64,000 nt of DNA from Herminiimonas contaminans (GTDB lineage: Bacteria > Pseudomonadota > Gammaproteobacteria > Burkholderiales > Burkholderiaceae_D). The notes beneath the pieces are model-generated. The model was not told the origin of the DNA, ran no database searches, and was given only the letters and a program-made list of their open reading frames with translations. Location of the stretch: NCBI RefSeq assembly GCF_015645465.1, contig NZ_JADOEL010000002.1, positions 186,001-250,000 of the forward strand, given 5' to 3'. The position numbers were made by a program, and so were the translations under genes. Each line of letters begins with the position of its first letter. Positions within the stretch are counted from its first letter, which is position 1. This document shows, piece by piece, positions 2,583-60,718 of this stretch.

Positions 2583-3626
2583 TTACCAAATAGCCTTGCC
2601 GGAAGCATCTTTGACATTTGCTTTCCATGCGTCCTGAACCAATTTCACAACTGGTGCAGGCATTGCAACGTAGTCCAGGTCGGAAGCCATAGCGCCGCCG
2701 TTTTTGTAGGACCAGTCAAAGAATTTCAACACTTCTTTAGCGCGTTCAGCCGATGCTTGCGATTTGTGCAAGAGGATGAAAGATGCGCCAGTGATAGGCC
2801 AGCTCGATTTACCAGCCTGGTTGGTCAGAATCACGCCCATACCTGGGGTTTTTGCCCAATCAGCACCAGCTGCAGCTGCTTTGAATGTTTCGTCGTCAGG
2901 TTGTACGAATTGACCGTCACGGTTTTTCAACTGGGTGTGGGACATTTTGTTCTTTTTAGCGTACGCGTACTCTACGTAGCCGATCGAACCTTTGATACGT
3001 TGAACGTTAGCTGCAACGCCTTCGTTACCTTTGCCGCCCACGCCTGCTGGCCATTTAACTGCTGTACCTGCGCCCACGCCTTCTTTGAAGTCAGCATTGG
3101 TTTTCGACAGGAAGTCGGTCCACAAGAATGTGGTGCCCGAGCCGTCCGAACGGTGCACAACGGTGATGTCGGAATCTGTCAGTTTTGCACCTGGGTTCAA
3201 TGCAGTGATACGTGCATCGTTCCATTTGGTGATTTTGCCGAGGTAGATGTTAGCCAGTACTTCTGGCGTCATTTTCAATTGACCTGGGGTGATGCCGTCC
3301 AGGTTGACGATAGGCACAACGCCGCCCATGATCGCCGGGAATTGCAGCAAGCCTTCAGCTTCCAGCTCTTCTTCTTTCAGCGGCATGTCGGATGCGCCGA
3401 AATCAACGGTTTTTGCCTTGATTTGTTTAATGCCGCCGCCGGAGCCGATGGATTGATAGTTCAAGCCAGTGCCGGTTGCTGCTTTATAGGATTCTGCCCA
3501 TTTGGAATAAATAGGGTAAGGGAAGGTCGCGCCAGCACCTGTAATATCAGCTGCTACTGCGGAAGAGAACGCCACTGCTGCGACTGCAGCTACCATGGCG
3601 GTTTTAACAAATTGATTCAATCGCAT
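2583..3626 (-). CDS. pstS: Periplasmic phosphate-binding protein PstS
   Basis: Substrate-binding subunit of the Pst phosphate importer, 347 residues. A Sec signal peptide covers about residues 1-25 (positive start, alanine-rich core, AVA cleavage site). The mature protein opens with the PstS hallmark ITGAGATFPYPIYSKW. Phosphate-binding loops are visible (GSGGGIKQI, DFGASDMPL, and HRSDGSGTT about halfway). A good AGGAG lies before the ATG. Upstream are a minus-strand Pho box and a TAGAGT -10, so it is predicted to be PhoB-activated. It is the first gene of pstSCAB. Confidence 0.97.
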   Translation of the reverse strand: MRLNQFVKTAMVAAVAAVAFSSAVAADITGAGATFPYPIYSKWAESYKAATGTGLNYQSIGSGGGIKQIKAKTVDFGASDMPLKEEELEAEGLLQFPAIMGGVVPIVNLDGITPGQLKMTPEVLANIYLGKITKWNDARITALNPGAKLTDSDITVVHRSDGSGTTFLWTDFLSKTNADFKEGVGAGTAVKWPAGVGGKGNEGVAANVQRIKGSIGYVEYAYAKKNKMSHTQLKNRDGQFVQPDDETFKAAAAGADWAKTPGMGVILTNQAGKSSWPITGASFILLHKSQASAERAKEVLKFFDWSYKNGGAMASDLDYVAMPAPVVKLVQDAWKANVKDASGKAIW

Positions 3627-3663: not shown

Positions 3664-3696
3664 ACTCTAGCGAACAATTATGACAGCTTTATGACT
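3664..3696 (-). promoter_or_regulatory. Pho box and promoter of pstSCAB
   Basis: On the minus strand the half-sites AGTCAT (3696-3691) and TGTCAT (3685-3680) lie exactly 11 bases apart, the PhoB direct-repeat pitch. Ten bases after the second half-site comes TAGAGT (3669-3664), a plausible -10 with the Pho box taking the place of the -35. The predicted start of transcription lies about 30 bases before the pstS ATG. This follows the known PhoB promoter layout; binding itself is inferred. Confidence 0.8.
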
Positions 3697-3738
3697 TCGG
3701 AAAAATCATGTCATAAACTTGATTTTGGACAAAAAAGC

Positions 3739-3772
3739 TTGTCATTAAGTTGTCATAATGGGTCACTACACT
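3739..3772 (+). promoter_or_regulatory. Pho box and promoter of ppk-sixA
   Basis: The plus strand carries TTGTCATTAAGTTGTCATAA at 3739-3758: two TGTCAT half-sites (3740, 3751) 11 bases apart. Ten bases after the second is TACACT (3767-3772), a possible -10. This is the same geometry as the pstS box on the other strand and the olsB box at 11384. A further isolated TGTCAT at 3709 is out of phase. The ppk start lies only 15 bases beyond the -10, so the leader would be very short. Confidence 0.78.
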
Positions 3773-7437: not shown

Positions 7438-8613
7438 ATGTCTGAAGCATCCCCGCGTTTTGATACTGCGTATCGTCATCTGATCTGGAAGACGCTCGCC
7501 CTCTTTCTTTCCTATCTCGCTGTTGCCATGTCCTTGCCGGTACTACCGGTCTATGTCACGCAGCAGCTGCACTACGGCAACGTACTCGCCGGTCTCGCCG
7601 TCGGTATCACCTTCCTCGCCACCATCCTGACCCGCAGCCAGGCCGGCACGCTGACCGACCGCATAGGCGGCAAACACAGCATGCGGCGCGGCCTGGTGAT
7701 TTACACCATCGCCAGCCTGGTGTGCTGGGTCTCGGCTTGGCCCCTCTTCCCTATTTCATTCAGCTATGGCTTGCTGATCGTCGGTCGCCTGCTGCTCGGC
7801 TGGGGGGAAAGCCTGGCGCTGGTCGGCATGCTGGGCTGGAGCATAGAACAGATGGGACCTGCGCGCGCCGGTCGCGTCATCGCCTTGTCCGGCATGGCCA
7901 TCTACGGTGCCTTTGCCGTCGGCAGCCCGCTCGGCCTCGCGATCTTCCAGCACTTTGGCTTCACTGGCCTGATGCTGGTGTGTGCCACCCTGCCTTTGCT
8001 CGGGCTGGCCATGATCAAGAACATGCCGGAAGGCGCATTGCAAAACGGCGTACGGGAATCGTTCTGGCGCATCCTCGGCCGCATCTGGCGCCCCGGCCTG
8101 ACCGTGGGCTTGCAAGGTGTCGGTTTTGCCGCACTGGGCGCTTTCATTACGCTGCACTTCATCAATCAGGGCTGGGCCTATGGCAGCCTGGGCCTGACCT
8201 TGTTTGGCAGCGGCTTTGTCGGCATGCGTTTATTCTGCGGCCACCTACCTGACAAGATAGGCGGCAGCCGTGTCGCCATCGTTTCACTGGCGATCGAAGC
8301 GACCGGTCAATTCCTGCTGTGGAGCGCCAACGAACCAGCCTGGGCCTTACTCGGCGCATTGCTGACCGGCATCGGCTGTTCGATGATCTTCCCGTCGATG
8401 GGAATGGAAGTGGTCAAGCGCGTCCCACCGCAATTACGCGGCACCGCAGTCGGTGGTTTCGCCGCCTTCCAGGACATCGCCTATGGCTTGACCGGGCCAG
8501 TAGCGGGTCTGTTTGCCGATCACTATGGTTATGCGTCGGTGTTCCTGGTCGGCGGCATCGCCGCAACCATGGGTATAGGTACCGCGATACTGACAGGCAG
8601 GGAAAAGACTTGA
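7438..8613 (+). CDS. MFS transporter, YhhS/YfcJ-like
   Basis: 391 residues with about 12 membrane segments. The start at 7438 has GGAG 8 bases upstream; an in-frame ATG at 7360 would add 26 non-membrane residues without a site. Features include the MFS loop 2-3 motif GTLTDRIGGKHSMRRG at about residues 63-78 and an N-terminal segment SLPVLPVYV. Its style is that of the UPF0226 (YhhS/YfcJ) efflux permeases. Substrate unknown. It converges with the glycosyltransferase gene across a paired hairpin. Confidence 0.85.
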   Translation: MSEASPRFDTAYRHLIWKTLALFLSYLAVAMSLPVLPVYVTQQLHYGNVLAGLAVGITFLATILTRSQAGTLTDRIGGKHSMRRGLVIYTIASLVCWVSAWPLFPISFSYGLLIVGRLLLGWGESLALVGMLGWSIEQMGPARAGRVIALSGMAIYGAFAVGSPLGLAIFQHFGFTGLMLVCATLPLLGLAMIKNMPEGALQNGVRESFWRILGRIWRPGLTVGLQGVGFAALGAFITLHFINQGWAYGSLGLTLFGSGFVGMRLFCGHLPDKIGGSRVAIVSLAIEATGQFLLWSANEPAWALLGALLTGIGCSMIFPSMGMEVVKRVPPQLRGTAVGGFAAFQDIAYGLTGPVAGLFADHYGYASVFLVGGIAATMGIGTAILTGREKT

Positions 8614-8615
8614 AC

Positions 8616-8669
8616 TGAGGTATGAACAAGGACGAGTACTGCGCTATGCAGCGGAGTACTCGCACCTCA
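8616..8669. terminator. Two-part hairpin between convergent genes
   Basis: Inner arms CGAGTACT (8633-8640) and AGTACTCG (8655-8662) pair perfectly, with GCGCT/AGCG pairing continuing inside. Outer arms TGAGGT (8616-8621) and ACCTCA (8664-8669) also pair. It lies between the convergent stops of the MFS gene and the glycosyltransferase gene and could end both transcripts. No clear T-run, so termination efficiency is uncertain. Confidence 0.6.
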
Positions 8670-8672
8670 ACA

Positions 8673-9722
8673 TCATGCGCTAGGCTTGGGTGATGCGCGA
8701 CGCACCATAGGGATGTGATCGGTCTTGCGTACCGGATGCAAATGCGTGAGGAATTGCTGGGTTGCTGCACTCCACGAGTAGCACAGCGCATGCTCGCGCA
8801 CCACTGAACGCTTCAGGTTCAGCGCATCAAAGCAGGCGCGCATCAGGTCTTCATGCAGCACGCCGGATTTACCCTGTGCCACCACGTCGATCGGACCTTC
8901 CACCGGATAAGCCGCGACCGGCACACCGCAGGCCATCGCTTCGATCAGCACCAGGCCGAAAGTGTCGGTACGGCTGGGGAATACGAAGACGTCAGCGCAG
9001 CTGTAGTAAGCCGGCAATGCATCATGCGGCTTGGCGCCGAGGAAGTGAACCTCGGGGTACTTCTTCTCCAACTCTTCGCGCATAGGGCCATCGCCTATCA
9101 CCCACTTCGCGCCCGGCAAATCCATTTGCAGGAAAGCTTCTATATTTTTTTCCACCGCAACACGACCGACGTAGAGATACAGCGGTCGCTCTTGCGTTAC
9201 TTCTTCGCGCTGGCCCGGGCGGAAGTAATCGGTATCCACACCACGGCTCCATTGCACGACATTTTTAAAGCCGCTTTTTTCCAGCGCATCCTGCATGCGC
9301 GGCGTCGGCACCATGACGGCCTTGGCTGGTTTGTGGAACCACTTCAGCCAGCGATAGGTAAGCGCCAGCGGCAGGTGGAAACGTGCGCGCAGGTATTCAG
9401 GGAAACGGGTGTGATAGGCAGTAGTGAAGTCGAGGCCACGGTTGATGCAGAAACGGCGCGCCGCCAGCCCCATAGGGCCTTCGGTAGCGATGTGTATGCA
9501 ATCCGGATCGAAGTCTTCCAGTGCTGCAGCAACCTTGGCATATGGCTTATAGGCCAGGCGTATCTCCGGATAGGTCGGGCAGGAATAGCTGCGCATGTGT
9601 TCCGGCGTCACCATCAACACGGCATGACCGTTGGCGCGCAATTGCTTGCGCGTCGCTTTCAGCGTGTTGACCACACCATTGACTTGCGGCTCCCAGGCGT
9701 CGGTTACGATGGCGATACGCAT
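8673..9722 (-). CDS. Family-4 glycosyltransferase, Agt-like, third gene of the lipid operon
   Basis: 349 residues, GT-B fold. The N-terminal Rossmann half opens with MRIAIVTDAWEPQVNGVV. The donor-binding half contains YVGRVAVEKN and the family motif region PSRTDTFGLVLIEAMACG, where the first Glu of the usual E-x7-E pair is Asp. It overlaps the preceding metallophosphoesterase gene by 19 bases. The nearest functional analogy is the Agt glycosyltransferase paired with PlcP in lipid remodelling of alphaproteobacteria, which glycosylates diacylglycerol. SQD2-type or mannosyl transferases look similar, so the sugar is unknown. Confidence 0.85.
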   Translation of the reverse strand: MRIAIVTDAWEPQVNGVVNTLKATRKQLRANGHAVLMVTPEHMRSYSCPTYPEIRLAYKPYAKVAAALEDFDPDCIHIATEGPMGLAARRFCINRGLDFTTAYHTRFPEYLRARFHLPLALTYRWLKWFHKPAKAVMVPTPRMQDALEKSGFKNVVQWSRGVDTDYFRPGQREEVTQERPLYLYVGRVAVEKNIEAFLQMDLPGAKWVIGDGPMREELEKKYPEVHFLGAKPHDALPAYYSCADVFVFPSRTDTFGLVLIEAMACGVPVAAYPVEGPIDVVAQGKSGVLHEDLMRACFDALNLKRSVVREHALCYSWSAATQQFLTHLHPVRKTDHIPMVRRASPKPSA

Positions 9723-10564
9723 AATTCTTCACCTTTTTCATGTTTTGCTGCCTTGTGCGACTTGACGATTTCCTGCCAGGTCACCAGACGCAAGGCACCG
9801 GATGCATCTTCCACCAAAGCGGACAGGCTTTCGACCCAGTCACCATCATTGCAATAAGTAATACCGTCGATGTCGCGGATCTCAGGTTTATGGATGTGAC
9901 CGCAGATCACGCCGTCCAGTCCGCGACGCTTGGCTTCAGCGGCCAGCGCATTTTCAAATGAAGAGATGTAGCTGACGGCATTCTTCACTTTCAGCTTCAG
10001 GTATTGCGACAGCGACCAGTACGGCAAACCGGCACGGGCGCGCCAGCTGTTGAACCATTGATTGAATTTGAGGATGACGGTGTAGAGGTTGTCGCCCACA
10101 TAGGCCAGCCATTTGGCACAGGCGATCACGCCATCAAAGCGGTCACCATGCAGCACCAGCATGCGCTTGCCCTGCGCTGTCGTGTGTATGAGTTCATCAC
10201 GGATGCGTATGCCACCAAAATCCAGGTCTATGAATTGGCGTACCGCTTCGTCGTGATTGCCGGGCACGAAGATCACTTCGGTACCCTTCTTGGCCTTTTT
10301 CAGCACCGTTTGTACTACGTCGTTATGCGCTTGTTCCCAGTACCAGCGGCGTTTCAGTTGCCAGCCGTCGATGATGTCACCAACCAGGTAGAGGGTGTCC
10401 GATTCCGTTTTGCGCAGGAATTCCAGCAGGCGTTGCGCCTGGCAACCAGTGGTTCCCAGGTGCAGGTCTGAAATCCAGATTGTACGAAAGCGGATAGGCT
10501 CGCGCTTCGCGCCAACTTCCGCACCGATAAAATCAGTCGTCAAAAATTGGTCGCGTGGCTTCAT
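9704..10564 (-). CDS. PlcP/LpxH-type metallophosphoesterase, second gene of the lipid operon
   Basis: 286 residues of the calcineurin-like phosphoesterase fold with all metal motifs: SDLHLG (about 32-37), GDIIDGW (62-68), GNHDE (101-105), HGDRFD (about 139) and CGHIHKPE near residue 230. Databases usually name this family UDP-2,3-diacylglucosamine hydrolase. However, the GDIIDGW-type motif followed by WYWEQAHNDVV matches the PlcP phospholipase C group that turns phospholipids into diacylglycerol under phosphate stress in Sinorhizobium. Its neighbours (OlsB-like, Agt-like) and Pho box favour PlcP. It overlaps the gene before by 4 and the gene after by 19 bases. Confidence 0.85.
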   Translation of the reverse strand: MKPRDQFLTTDFIGAEVGAKREPIRFRTIWISDLHLGTTGCQAQRLLEFLRKTESDTLYLVGDIIDGWQLKRRWYWEQAHNDVVQTVLKKAKKGTEVIFVPGNHDEAVRQFIDLDFGGIRIRDELIHTTAQGKRMLVLHGDRFDGVIACAKWLAYVGDNLYTVILKFNQWFNSWRARAGLPYWSLSQYLKLKVKNAVSYISSFENALAAEAKRRGLDGVICGHIHKPEIRDIDGITYCNDGDWVESLSALVEDASGALRLVTWQEIVKSHKAAKHEKGEELCVSPS

Positions 10565-11328
10565 GCTGGTTGCGCCTCTTTCAGGTAGTGACGTGCGTAG
10601 CGGGCATCGAGCTTGGCCAGCGGCAACATCATGAACAGATCTGCACTGTGGAAATCAGGATCCCAGGCCGGGTTGCCGCAGACCCAGGCACCGCTGCGCA
10701 GATAACCCTTGATCAACGGTGGTACCACCGCCACATGACCAGGTTCGCGTTCGGCGATAGGGAAAGGCAAATGTGGTGTGACGCGATACTCGGCTGGTGC
10801 CAGGCTGTTTTCTGCCAGCGAGTGATACAGCGCAGCAGCATTGTGGCCGCCATCAGCCAGGCTGACACTGGCGCAACCGATCAGGTATTCACATTTTTCT
10901 TTCTTCATGTAGGCAGCCAGACCAGCCCACAGCAGCATGATGACGCCGCCACTGCGGTAGTCCGGATGGATGCAGGCACGTCCTGCTTCCACGATGCGGT
11001 TGCGCAGATTATTCAGGCGGCTCAGGTCGAATTCCTGCTCGGAGTAAAACTGACCCATCTTGCGCGCAGCTTGCGGACTCATGACGCGGTAAGTGCCGAC
11101 CACTTTCAGTGTTGCCGAATCGCGTACGATCAGGTGATCGCAGTACGCATCAAATTCGTCTTTATCGAGTCTCTCTTCGTTCTTCAGTGAAGACAGTCCC
11201 ATAGACTCGATAAAAACTTTGTAACGCAAACGCTGTACTTCACGTACTTCCTTTTGCGTGCTGGCAAGGCTCAGCGTCAGCTTGGGAGAAGCAAGATTGG
11301 TATCGGCAGAAGCATTCAGTAATCGCAT
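10561..11328 (-). CDS. olsB: OlsB-type N-acyltransferase (ornithine lipid synthesis), first gene of the lipid operon
   Basis: 255 residues, the size of OlsB. It belongs to the GNAT-fold acyltransferase group, with RLRYKVFIESMGL, the conserved DHLIVRD, VVGTYRVM and EAGRACIHPDYRSGGVIMLLWAGL motifs. OlsB moves a 3-hydroxyacyl group from acyl-carrier protein to the alpha-amine of ornithine, giving lyso-ornithine lipid; an OlsA would be needed for the second acyl chain and is not in this window. The stop overlaps the next start (ATGA). The gene is preceded by three phased Pho half-sites, so it should be induced by phosphate limitation. Confidence 0.85.
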   Translation of the reverse strand: MRLLNASADTNLASPKLTLSLASTQKEVREVQRLRYKVFIESMGLSSLKNEERLDKDEFDAYCDHLIVRDSATLKVVGTYRVMSPQAARKMGQFYSEQEFDLSRLNNLRNRIVEAGRACIHPDYRSGGVIMLLWAGLAAYMKKEKCEYLIGCASVSLADGGHNAAALYHSLAENSLAPAEYRVTPHLPFPIAEREPGHVAVVPPLIKGYLRSGAWVCGNPAWDPDFHSADLFMMLPLAKLDARYARHYLKEAQPA

Positions 11329-11367
11329 GTGTCGTCCTTTGTATTGTGACGAACGAAGCGTAACTGT

Positions 11368-11411
11368 TGATTACTTCAGCAAAATGACAGGAGCATGTCA
11401 GTTTCATGACA
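11368..11411 (-). promoter_or_regulatory. Triple Pho half-site and promoter of the olsB-plcP-agt operon
   Basis: On the plus strand ATGACA (11384), ATGTCA (11395) and ATGACA (11406) lie exactly 11 bases apart. On the minus strand they read TGTCAT, TGACAT, TGTCAT toward olsB. Ten bases after the last comes TAATCA (11373-11368), a weak -10. The geometry equals that of the pstS and ppk boxes in this window. It ends about 40 bases before the olsB ATG. PhoB control is inferred from this match. Confidence 0.82.
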
Positions 11412-11455
11412 CGACAACACTCTCAGACATTCCAATCCCTGAGAGTGCGGGACAT

Positions 11456-11480
11456 AAAAAAACCGGCGCATGGCACCGGT
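11456..11480 (-). terminator. Terminator after the H1-like gene
   Basis: On the minus strand an 8-base stem (ACCGGTGC / GCGCCGGT, one G-U) with a 3-base loop spans 11480-11462 and is followed by a run of T (11462-11456). It lies about 60 bases after the stop of the histone H1-like gene and separates it from the lipid operon. Confidence 0.88.
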
Positions 11481-11540
11481 TTTGTTTGCCCTGAAACAAC
11501 AGGCCTGCAACTCCCTGCGCAGGGCAGGAAATCTGCATGA

Positions 11541-12119
11541 TTACTTGGATTTTTTCGGACGCCCAGCTTTCAGCGGCGACAAGGCTGCGATCACACTGTT
11601 GAGCTTCTTCATGTCCATGTCTTTGATCAGCGCAACGCCAGCACGCAGCAATTCGCTTTTCTTGACCGCAACACCGGCTTTCAGGAAGGCTTTTTTCACT
11701 TCGCTCAAAACCTGGTATTCGATTTCCGGCATGGTGAAGCTATCGCGTACCAGCTTGGCTTTTTTGCCTTTTACTTCGGCCACTGGCTTCGAAGCTGGCT
11801 TGCTTACTGGTTTAGCTACTGGCTTGACCGCAGGTTTCACGGCTGGCTTGACGGCCTTGGTGACGCGCTTGCTTGCTGCTGGCTTAGTTGCTGGTTTGGC
11901 TGCAGGCTTGCTTACAGCTTTCTTTGCAGGCGACTTGGTCGCTGCTGGCTTGGCTGTCACTTTCTTCGCCGGTGCTTTGGCCGCAGGCTTGGCTGCAGCT
12001 TTTTTAGCCACTGCCTTTTTTGCTGCTGGTGCTTTGCTTGCTACTGCTTTTTTAGCAGCAGCTTTCTTTGCTGGCGCTTCTGGCTTCACTTCCACCTTGA
12101 CTTCTGTTTCGTTCGACAC
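11541..12119 (-). CDS. Histone H1-like alanine/lysine/proline-rich DNA-binding protein
   Basis: 192 residues. The first two thirds (about 10-120) are low-complexity AAKKAVAKKPAAK-type repeats resembling eukaryotic H1 tails and the H1-like proteins of Bordetella and Burkholderia. A folded-looking C-terminal part (about 125-192) contains FTMPEIEYQVLSEVKKAFL and ends in a basic GRPKKSK. The start is GTG with AAGGAGAAGC just before it. Likely a nucleoid-binding or regulatory protein. Its length may vary between strains because of the repeats. Confidence 0.85.
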   Translation of the reverse strand: MSNETEVKVEVKPEAPAKKAAAKKAVASKAPAAKKAVAKKAAAKPAAKAPAKKVTAKPAATKSPAKKAVSKPAAKPATKPAASKRVTKAVKPAVKPAVKPVAKPVSKPASKPVAEVKGKKAKLVRDSFTMPEIEYQVLSEVKKAFLKAGVAVKKSELLRAGVALIKDMDMKKLNSVIAALSPLKAGRPKKSK

Positions 12120-60298: not shown

Positions 60299-60622
60299 AG
60301 AGACTACTTATCCTGAGCTGCCGATACGGCGTTTAGAGAGTTAGTTGCAGAGCTGCATCGAAAATTGCATGCGCAAGTTTAACCTTAGCAGGCGTCAATT
60401 CGTTAGCGATACCTGCCAAAACCGGGGCGCAAGCCCAGCAAGGACACAAACATACGTGGTCTGCAGGACTAAGGCAAATGAACAATTGTGGATTATTTAT
60501 CGCGAGTACGACGAAGTGCGATGGAAACGCCGTTTCGAAGCAAGGGGGGATGGCAGTAGCGGGAGGGTGATACTGAACTACGAGGATAATTACAACTATC
60601 TATATATAGACGTCTGTAAAGA

Positions 60623-60718
60623 GGCGAGCCTTGTCTACGGCACTTGCAGGAAATGGCTGTGGCTGCTTCGTTCCCGACCTGACCAGGTTGGCCATGCCAC
60701 AATGCGCAGGGGCCCGCC
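60623..60718 (-). ncRNA. ffs: Signal recognition particle RNA (4.5S, small type)
   Basis: The minus strand contains the universal SRP RNA core ACCTGGTCAGGTCGGGAA followed by GAAGCAGCC, the M-domain binding asymmetric loop and GNRA-like tip. The ends pair: GGCGGGCC at the 5' end with GGCTCGCC at the 3' end (one G-U). About 96 bases, normal for proteobacteria. It binds Ffh and targets membrane proteins. Exact ends may shift a few bases. Confidence 0.93.

Follow-up and report, generated by a model that had tools for sequence, protein, structure and literature searches.

A predicted PhoB-activated operon for two routes of phospholipid replacement in Herminiimonas contaminans

Most descriptions of lipid replacement under phosphate limitation so far concern marine bacteria, rhizobia, methanotrophs and pseudomonads. 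The passages of the papers cited here treat the genes for glycolipids and those for ornithine lipids as separate loci. A 64,000-nucleotide stretch of the Herminiimonas contaminans genome (the window) raises the question of whether both routes are joined in one operon. At positions 8673-11328 of its minus strand, it contains genes for an OlsB-like N-acyltransferase, a PlcP-type metallophosphoesterase and an Agt-type glycosyltransferase, preceded by a tandem Pho box (Table 1). A first-pass annotation of the letters alone had read this locus as both routes joined in a single betaproteobacterial operon, and the olsB-plcP-agt order and the family assignments support that view.

Judged from its sequence, the locus is very likely a PhoB-activated operon that would start two parallel phospholipid-replacement routes under phosphate limitation, the glycolipid route with both of its steps and the ornithine-lipid route with its first step only. 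At low phosphate, active PhoB would bind the array of half-sites and drive one transcript. PlcP would strip the phosphorylated head group from phospholipids, and Agt would add a sugar to the resulting diacylglycerol, which would yield a phosphorus-free glycolipid. OlsB would join a hydroxy fatty acid to ornithine, or to a similar amino acid, and the lyso aminolipid would receive its second acyl group from an unlinked OlsA-type acyltransferase. This mechanism is modelled on the cited portions of published work on PlcP and Agt (PMC9239053, PMC4796936, PMC8528852) and on PhoBR in Pseudomonas putida (PMC5082522).

Table 1. Features of the operon and of its upstream region in the window
Feature	Position	Strand	Length	Remarks
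OlsB-like N-acyltransferase	10561..11328	-	255 aa	first gene of the operon
PlcP-type metallophosphoesterase	9704..10564	-	286 aa	middle gene
Family-4 glycosyltransferase (GT4), Agt/GTcp clade	8673..9722	-	349 aa	third gene; diacylglycerol predicted as acceptor
Tandem Pho box	11384..11411	-		half-sites TGTCAT (11406-11411), TGACAT (11395-11400) and TGTCAT (11384-11389), exact 11-base pitch
-10-like hexamer TAATCA	11368..11373	-		10 bases past the last half-site, within the conserved TGAAGTAaTC block; putative role
Terminator-like hairpin	11459..11483	-		between the operon and the upstream gene; consensus match only

Families and predicted functions of the three proteins

The first protein contains a Pfam Acetyltransf_5 domain (126.9 bits). 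Its best NCBIfam models were the two for OlsB (173.3 and 170.4 bits), followed by OlsF (69.8 bits) and an exosortase-associated acyltransferase (41.9 bits), and the glycine-lipid GlsB model reached 21.5 bits. It was the only match in the genome to the OlsB model NF052554, and a PDB search with it returned only two matches (E values of 0.38 and 0.89). By these scores OlsB is the nearest described family. To that extent the earlier OlsB-like call stands; as an equivalog assignment it does not, with both scores lying under the NCBIfam cut-offs (173.3 against 350 and 170.4 against 320). The other two OlsB-like proteins scanned (L164 and L197) were likewise under these cut-offs.

No OlsA gene is linked to the operon, and the sole OlsA-like gene lies elsewhere. 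It encodes the closest to the OlsA models among three PF01553 proteins of the genome (248 amino acids, L005, G000:C1:343852-344595), and is flanked by genes that we take to be apaH and pyrC. This candidate scored 121.3 and 99.6 bits with the OlsA models (cut-off 300) and 98.5 bits with a general AGP acyltransferase model. Co-occurrence of OlsA and OlsB was tried as a test of a complete pathway and gave no signal. The candidate was present in 144 of the 145 family genomes, compared to 108 for OlsB; found with or without OlsB, it is thus not tied to ornithine lipid and lends the OlsA step no support. The first-pass annotation therefore overstated the case in calling the module complete. The scores under the cut-offs, the unlinked OlsA and its lack of specificity all weigh against the ornithine-lipid half of our interpretation.

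The alternative that survives best is that the glycolipid half works as described and that the product of the OlsB-like protein is a different amino-acid lipid, or an N-acyl amino acid (with lysine or glutamine, or as a signal). The OlsB matches under the cut-offs and the operon without OlsA would agree with this, and the cited part of a study on Acinetobacter baumannii states that ornithine and lysine lipids both need olsB and olsA there (PMC11828411). We consider it unlikely, however, since the best models remain the two OlsB families, at 173 and 170 bits against 21.5 for GlsB, and since plcP is linked elsewhere to olsB-olsA pairs or to an OlsF over its cut-off.

A less probable alternative takes plcP-agt as the working unit, with olsB carried by the shared promoter but lacking a functional second step, so that little ornithine lipid would form. 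The OlsA candidate that does not co-occur with OlsB fits this, as does the variation among pairs, olsB-plcP being found without an Agt match (E 1e-30) in 15 of 76 PlcP genomes. However, olsB comes first in the operon, closest to the Pho array, and other genomes link plcP to olsA or olsF. In addition, A. baumannii resembles the window in having a Pho box at olsB and an olsA elsewhere that does not respond to phosphate, as far as the cited passages go (PMC11828411). It thus provides a precedent for a Pho-box olsB that can work with an unlinked, phosphate-independent olsA. The main text of that paper does not contain the word Agt (PMC11828411).

The middle protein of the predicted two-route operon showed the complete calcineurin-type set of metal motifs that had been noted at first (DLH at 33, GDIID at 62, GNHD at 102, HGD at 139 and GHIH at 222). 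A tree of 59 rows was divided by a single branch into 37 PlcP-type and 22 LpxH sequences (SH-aLRT support of 100), and the 286-residue protein fell on the PlcP side. Its nearest named PlcP in this tree was that of Herbaspirillum rhizosphaerae (85% identical). It shared 47% identity over 268 residues with the PlcP-like protein of Sinorhizobium meliloti, and 23% over 226 residues with the LpxH of its own genome. As a point against this assignment, no row of the tree represents a PlcP characterised under that name; the S. meliloti protein was taken as PlcP by inference, and so was its identity with SMc00171, since its source record is labelled pSymB but measures 3.7 Mb. The true LpxH is encoded elsewhere in the genome (L002:1444-2262), with 291 bits (cut-off 134) and 263.7 bits, and adjoins a ppiB-like gene, as E. 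coli lpxH lies beside ppiB. An LpxH over the cut-off was found in 20 of the 21 genomes searched, this one included.

That the middle gene encodes a further LpxH-like enzyme for lipid A synthesis is hardly credible: LpxH models were indeed its best NCBIfam matches (53.1 and 48.8 bits), a PDB search with the PlcP profile at E <=0.001 gave LpxH chains in 9 of 9 matches and relatives carry that name in records, yet the scores are far under the cut-offs (134 and 190.35), the tree branch is separate, a true LpxH exists and the motif is GNHD against GNRD in the genome's own LpxH, a comparison of these two sequences. The LpxH identity was therefore rejected. A literature search for papers with both 'LpxH' and 'GNRD' found none. 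The expectation that databases would name such genes after LpxH was confirmed in plasmid records with a PlcP match, of which 24 out of 32 were annotated as UDP-2,3-diacylglucosamine diphosphatase and 8 had no annotated gene at that place. The middle protein is thus of the PlcP type, not LpxH, as first proposed, and would be predicted to hydrolyse phospholipids.

Other PlcP-type genes were observed along the way. Three Pseudomonas aeruginosa plasmid records carry one. A further gene, about 2 kb from an OlsB gene (L060:2985-3890, plus strand), encodes a PlcP homologue with an altered GNHD motif and other altered conserved positions, and is perhaps inactive or repurposed.

Characterised Agt relatives add glucose, galactose or glucuronic acid. 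The GT4 sequence of the third protein carries GRVAVEKN at 186 and FPSRTDTFG at 248, and shared 53% identity over 337 residues with a plcP-adjacent glycosyltransferase of Sphingomonas. The corresponding motifs of Pelagibacter GTcp are GRVAXEKN and FPSXTDTFG, and alanine replacements of the residues listed in the cited section nearly or fully abolish its activity (PMC8231724). Thirteen of the 14 key residues were kept, four in the same numbering (G16, G82, G85 and H104) and nine at three positions lower (R, R, K, D, T, F, G, E and W), with Thr162 to Ser as the sole change. The His104-Asp256 dyad of GTcp is present as H104 and D253. These motifs and residues place the third protein in the Agt/GTcp clade of diacylglycerol glycosyltransferases, in agreement with the Agt-type call of the first-pass annotation, and its predicted acceptor is diacylglycerol.

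The suggestion, made in the same annotation, that the three genes form a single pathway to a glycosylated ornithine lipid can be set aside as highly improbable: the gene overlap is the only point in its favour, such a pathway needs no PlcP-made diacylglycerol, the glycosyltransferase keeps the residues of the diacylglycerol enzymes, a literature search for four phrases that denote such a lipid found no paper with any of them, and in the cited part of the work on Desulfovibrio alaskensis G20 the two routes operate in parallel, with ornithine lipid kept in the agt mutant and glycolipid in the olsF mutant while each loses the other class (PMC5193443).

Promoter and predicted Pho regulation

The overlaps of 4 bases (olsB-like and plcP-like) and 19 bases (plcP-like and GT4), the 11-base pitch of the three half-sites and the hexamer 10 bases further on were all exact as first annotated. 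At up to 3 mismatches, the triple half-site pattern occurred once in the window, at the operon and with 0 mismatches, compared to a shuffle mean of 0.07 (7 of 100 shuffles had one match). A plain sigma-70 promoter scan of 8400-11600 gave 0 sites against 2.0 in shuffles, and terminator-like consensus sites in the scanned region numbered 4 against 3.2.

Across the whole genome, Pho boxes with up to 2 mismatches numbered 40, compared to 13 for a reversed control pattern. Because of these counts a single box says little, and the conserved triple array carries the argument. Leaders were compared at 46 olsB-plcP loci, a non-random set chosen for adjacency out of 40 loci in the 145 genomes of the family and the best 80 named loci of a scan. 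Dropping the identical leaders L086 and L089 left 44 distinct ones, and single-base shuffles were the control for box and array counts. A Pho box of at least 11/14 within 140 bases was found in 24 of the 46 leaders, with 0.33 expected (23 of 45 without L088, a contig-edge artefact). The three-half-site array, at 15/21 or better, was present in 27 of the 44 distinct leaders (27 of 43 without L088), compared to 0.25% of shuffles; one further caveat is the L155 leader, which reaches this threshold without sharing the conserved promoter. The aligned leaders gave, at fixed spacing, the consensus TGTCAt, AAAC, GACAT and cTGTCAT, then TGAAGTAaTC and gtTA..CT, which was conserved across genera.

Against this stands the lack of the array in 17 of the 44 distinct leaders (one of them L088). 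Among these, all three loci read in genus g26 had no array, and also no box of at least 11/14 over 250 bases, with dinucleotide shuffles as control. The three-half-site promoter is thus conserved across genera, though not everywhere.

Other gene arrangements were tested at 19 gene starts in 15 loci, again with single-base shuffles as control. Boxes were found at olsF of L200 (12/14), at both divergent operons of L199 (13 and 12), at plcP of L152 (12) and at olsB of L203 (12), and no box at olsF of L201, olsB of L142 or plcP of L154.

The genome encodes the regulator pair just outside the window (L206), with NCBIfam scores of 299 bits for PhoB (cut-off 296.2) and 394.3 bits for PhoR (cut-off 334.2). 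These genes lie beside a cluster that we take to be pstS (2583..3626, minus strand) followed by pstC (1454-2482), pstA (597-1457) and a pstB truncated where the window begins. Together with the cross-genus conservation of the promoter, the presence of PhoB and PhoR bears out the PhoB-type control proposed in the first-pass annotation. The operon is accordingly placed, as a prediction, in the Pho regulon, and phosphate limitation would induce it.

Two more Pho-box-like sites with 2 mismatches each lie just upstream of pstS, beside ppk (3680-3697 and 3739-3756). Directly upstream of the operon, positions 11541-12119 (minus strand) encode a lysine- and alanine-rich histone-H1-like protein with no Pfam match. 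The window also contains a bacterial small signal recognition particle RNA at 60620-60718 (minus strand, 75.3 bits).

Linkage in the family and with other parts

The gene order was surveyed in the 145 family genomes with thresholds of E 1e-30 for PlcP and Agt and E 1e-15 for OlsB; OlsB neighbours were counted on both strands up to 6 kb, and matches at contig ends may be missed. PlcP was found in 76 genomes, OlsB in 108 and Agt in 47. The three-gene order described from the window was contiguous in 31 of the 76 PlcP genomes, which span 7 genera as read from the tables. A further 17 genomes had olsB-plcP adjacent without an adjacent Agt, and 13 had OlsB otherwise within 6 kb. The olsB and plcP genes were thus adjacent in 48 of the 76 genomes and within 6 kb of each other in 61. 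As evidence on the other side, OlsB was elsewhere in 13 genomes and absent in 2; linkage is thus frequent without being a requirement.

The partners of plcP varied. In several genomes without Agt, plcP was followed by a monogalactosyldiacylglycerol (MGDG) synthase-type enzyme (PF06925). In 8 genomes plcP-agt was followed by olsB 2-3 kb on, with DgkA- and SixA-type genes between them in the loci read. After the MGDG-synthase-type gene in plcP clusters, we also observed a small membrane-like protein of about 169 amino acids with no Pfam match (L048:2062-2571, minus strand), with matches in L086, L088, L091, L093 and L094. It may be a component of lipid remodelling not described so far.

Among the best 80 named loci of the scan, 28 had an OlsB match in the stretch; OlsB and PlcP were accompanied by an Agt match (46% identity or more) in 12, and olsB-plcP-agt was contiguous in 7. 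These seven were from Herbaspirillum rhizosphaerae (L085), Acidovorax sp. CF316 (L148), metagenome-assembled genomes of Comamonadaceae (L142 and L153) and Burkholderiaceae (L145), and uncultured betaproteobacteria (L139 and L164). L139 and L164 read olsA-olsB-plcP-agt, and the OlsA-like gene ahead of olsB was nearest to the OlsA models, under the cut-off. Polynucleobacter (L152) had plcP-agt-dgkA-olsB.

A DgkA gene often follows plcP-agt, as at L057:4078-4572 (plus strand) and at 21 of the best 80 named loci; this is seen above all in Burkholderia, Paraburkholderia and Cupriavidus. The position fits recycling of PlcP-made diacylglycerol.

Outside the family, 274 genomes of the class were searched (PlcP E 1e-30, OlsB E 1e-10). 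PlcP was found in 79 and OlsB in 59, mostly not near each other. Nine class loci (L197-L205), chosen for nearness or high identity, were read. Three of them combined plcP with an olsB-olsA pair: L197 had olsB-olsA-plcP in tight succession, L198 a glycosyltransferase-plcP pair, a PAP2 phosphatase and a second glycosyltransferase followed by olsB-olsA, and L199 a glycosyltransferase-plcP pair divergent from olsB-olsA. At L203, plcP-agt and olsB-olsA were about 6 kb apart. OlsF took the place of OlsB at three others. In L200, olsF (667.8 bits, cut-off 620) overlaps plcP by 4 bases and is followed by methyltransferase-like and Agt-like genes; L201 had olsF-plcP and then an Agt-like frame (by eye), and L202 plcP-agt-olsF, with OlsF scores of 419 and 425 bits, respectively, under the cut-off. 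L204 and L205 had plcP-agt with no OlsB within the stretch. The methyltransferase-like protein of L200 (2258-2992, minus strand, PF13578), encoded between plcP and the Agt-like gene, could modify one lipid.

A PlcP tree of 134 rows was used to count changes in linkage. On the best tree, linkage has to change state 12 times, and well-supported branches make 6 of these changes unavoidable; 113 rows were labelled, 21 were left out for short flanks, the rows were partly hand-picked, and some long branches have uncertain places. A tentative and somewhat doubtful explanation is that aminolipid and glycolipid synthesis form one functional unit, assembled several times from interchangeable parts under a PhoB promoter. 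On the aminolipid side these parts would be OlsB, alone or together with OlsA, or else OlsF; they would stand next to PlcP, which in turn would have Agt or a GT28-type enzyme as its neighbour. Selection would then act for a set lipid proportion, of zwitterionic aminolipid and neutral or acidic glycolipid, that holds membrane charge and curvature while phosphorus is withdrawn.

Comparison with known systems and meaning

The glycolipid half of the operon resembles described clusters. According to the cited passages, Methylosinus trichosporium has a plcP-agt operon, Pho boxes are predicted at type-2 plcP clusters of marine bacteria, and PlcP supplies diacylglycerol for Agt (PMC9239053, PMC4796936). 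The window operon likewise has PlcP beside an Agt-type glycosyltransferase, and differs from these clusters in OlsB. The marine plcP contexts, as given in the cited part, contain glycosyltransferases and, in type 1, btaA and btaB for betaine lipid, with no ornithine-lipid gene named (PMC4796936). For M. trichosporium, the cited text gives locus tags for OlsA and OlsB and does not describe them within the plcP cluster (PMC9239053), whereas the window operon encodes OlsB and PlcP together.

In two pseudomonads, according to the cited sections, both replacement routes are phosphate-responsive within a single cell (PMC5082522, PMC8528852, PMC9804370). PlcP, OlsA and OlsB of P. putida BIRD-1 are all PhoBR-dependent, and their locus tags are far apart (0974/0975 for olsA/olsB and 1390 for plcP; PMC5082522). 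P. aeruginosa has an olsBA operon and a plcP-agt1 operon, with PlcP, Agt1 and Agt2 (PMC8528852, PMC9804370). In contrast, one transcript is predicted for the window. D. alaskensis also replaces phospholipids jointly by glycolipid and ornithine lipid in low phosphate; its agt (Dde_3613) and olsF (Dde_3661) are separately numbered and, in the cited text, not described as one operon, with OlsF in the place of OlsB (PMC5193443). Searches of open-licence PMC papers found no description of an operon that contains plcP together with olsB or olsF.

The operon probably enables the cell to exchange phosphorus-containing membrane lipids for two types without phosphorus at the same time. An LpxH annotation in these groups can conceal a PlcP gene. 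The single operon is widespread among relatives, which makes joint use of both routes testable by one deletion set, and it would serve as a marker of phosphate stress. The wide occurrence of the arrangement and its recurrence with other parts are of more interest than the single operon. Should the linkage truly have originated repeatedly from different parts, the cell probably requires both lipids in combination.

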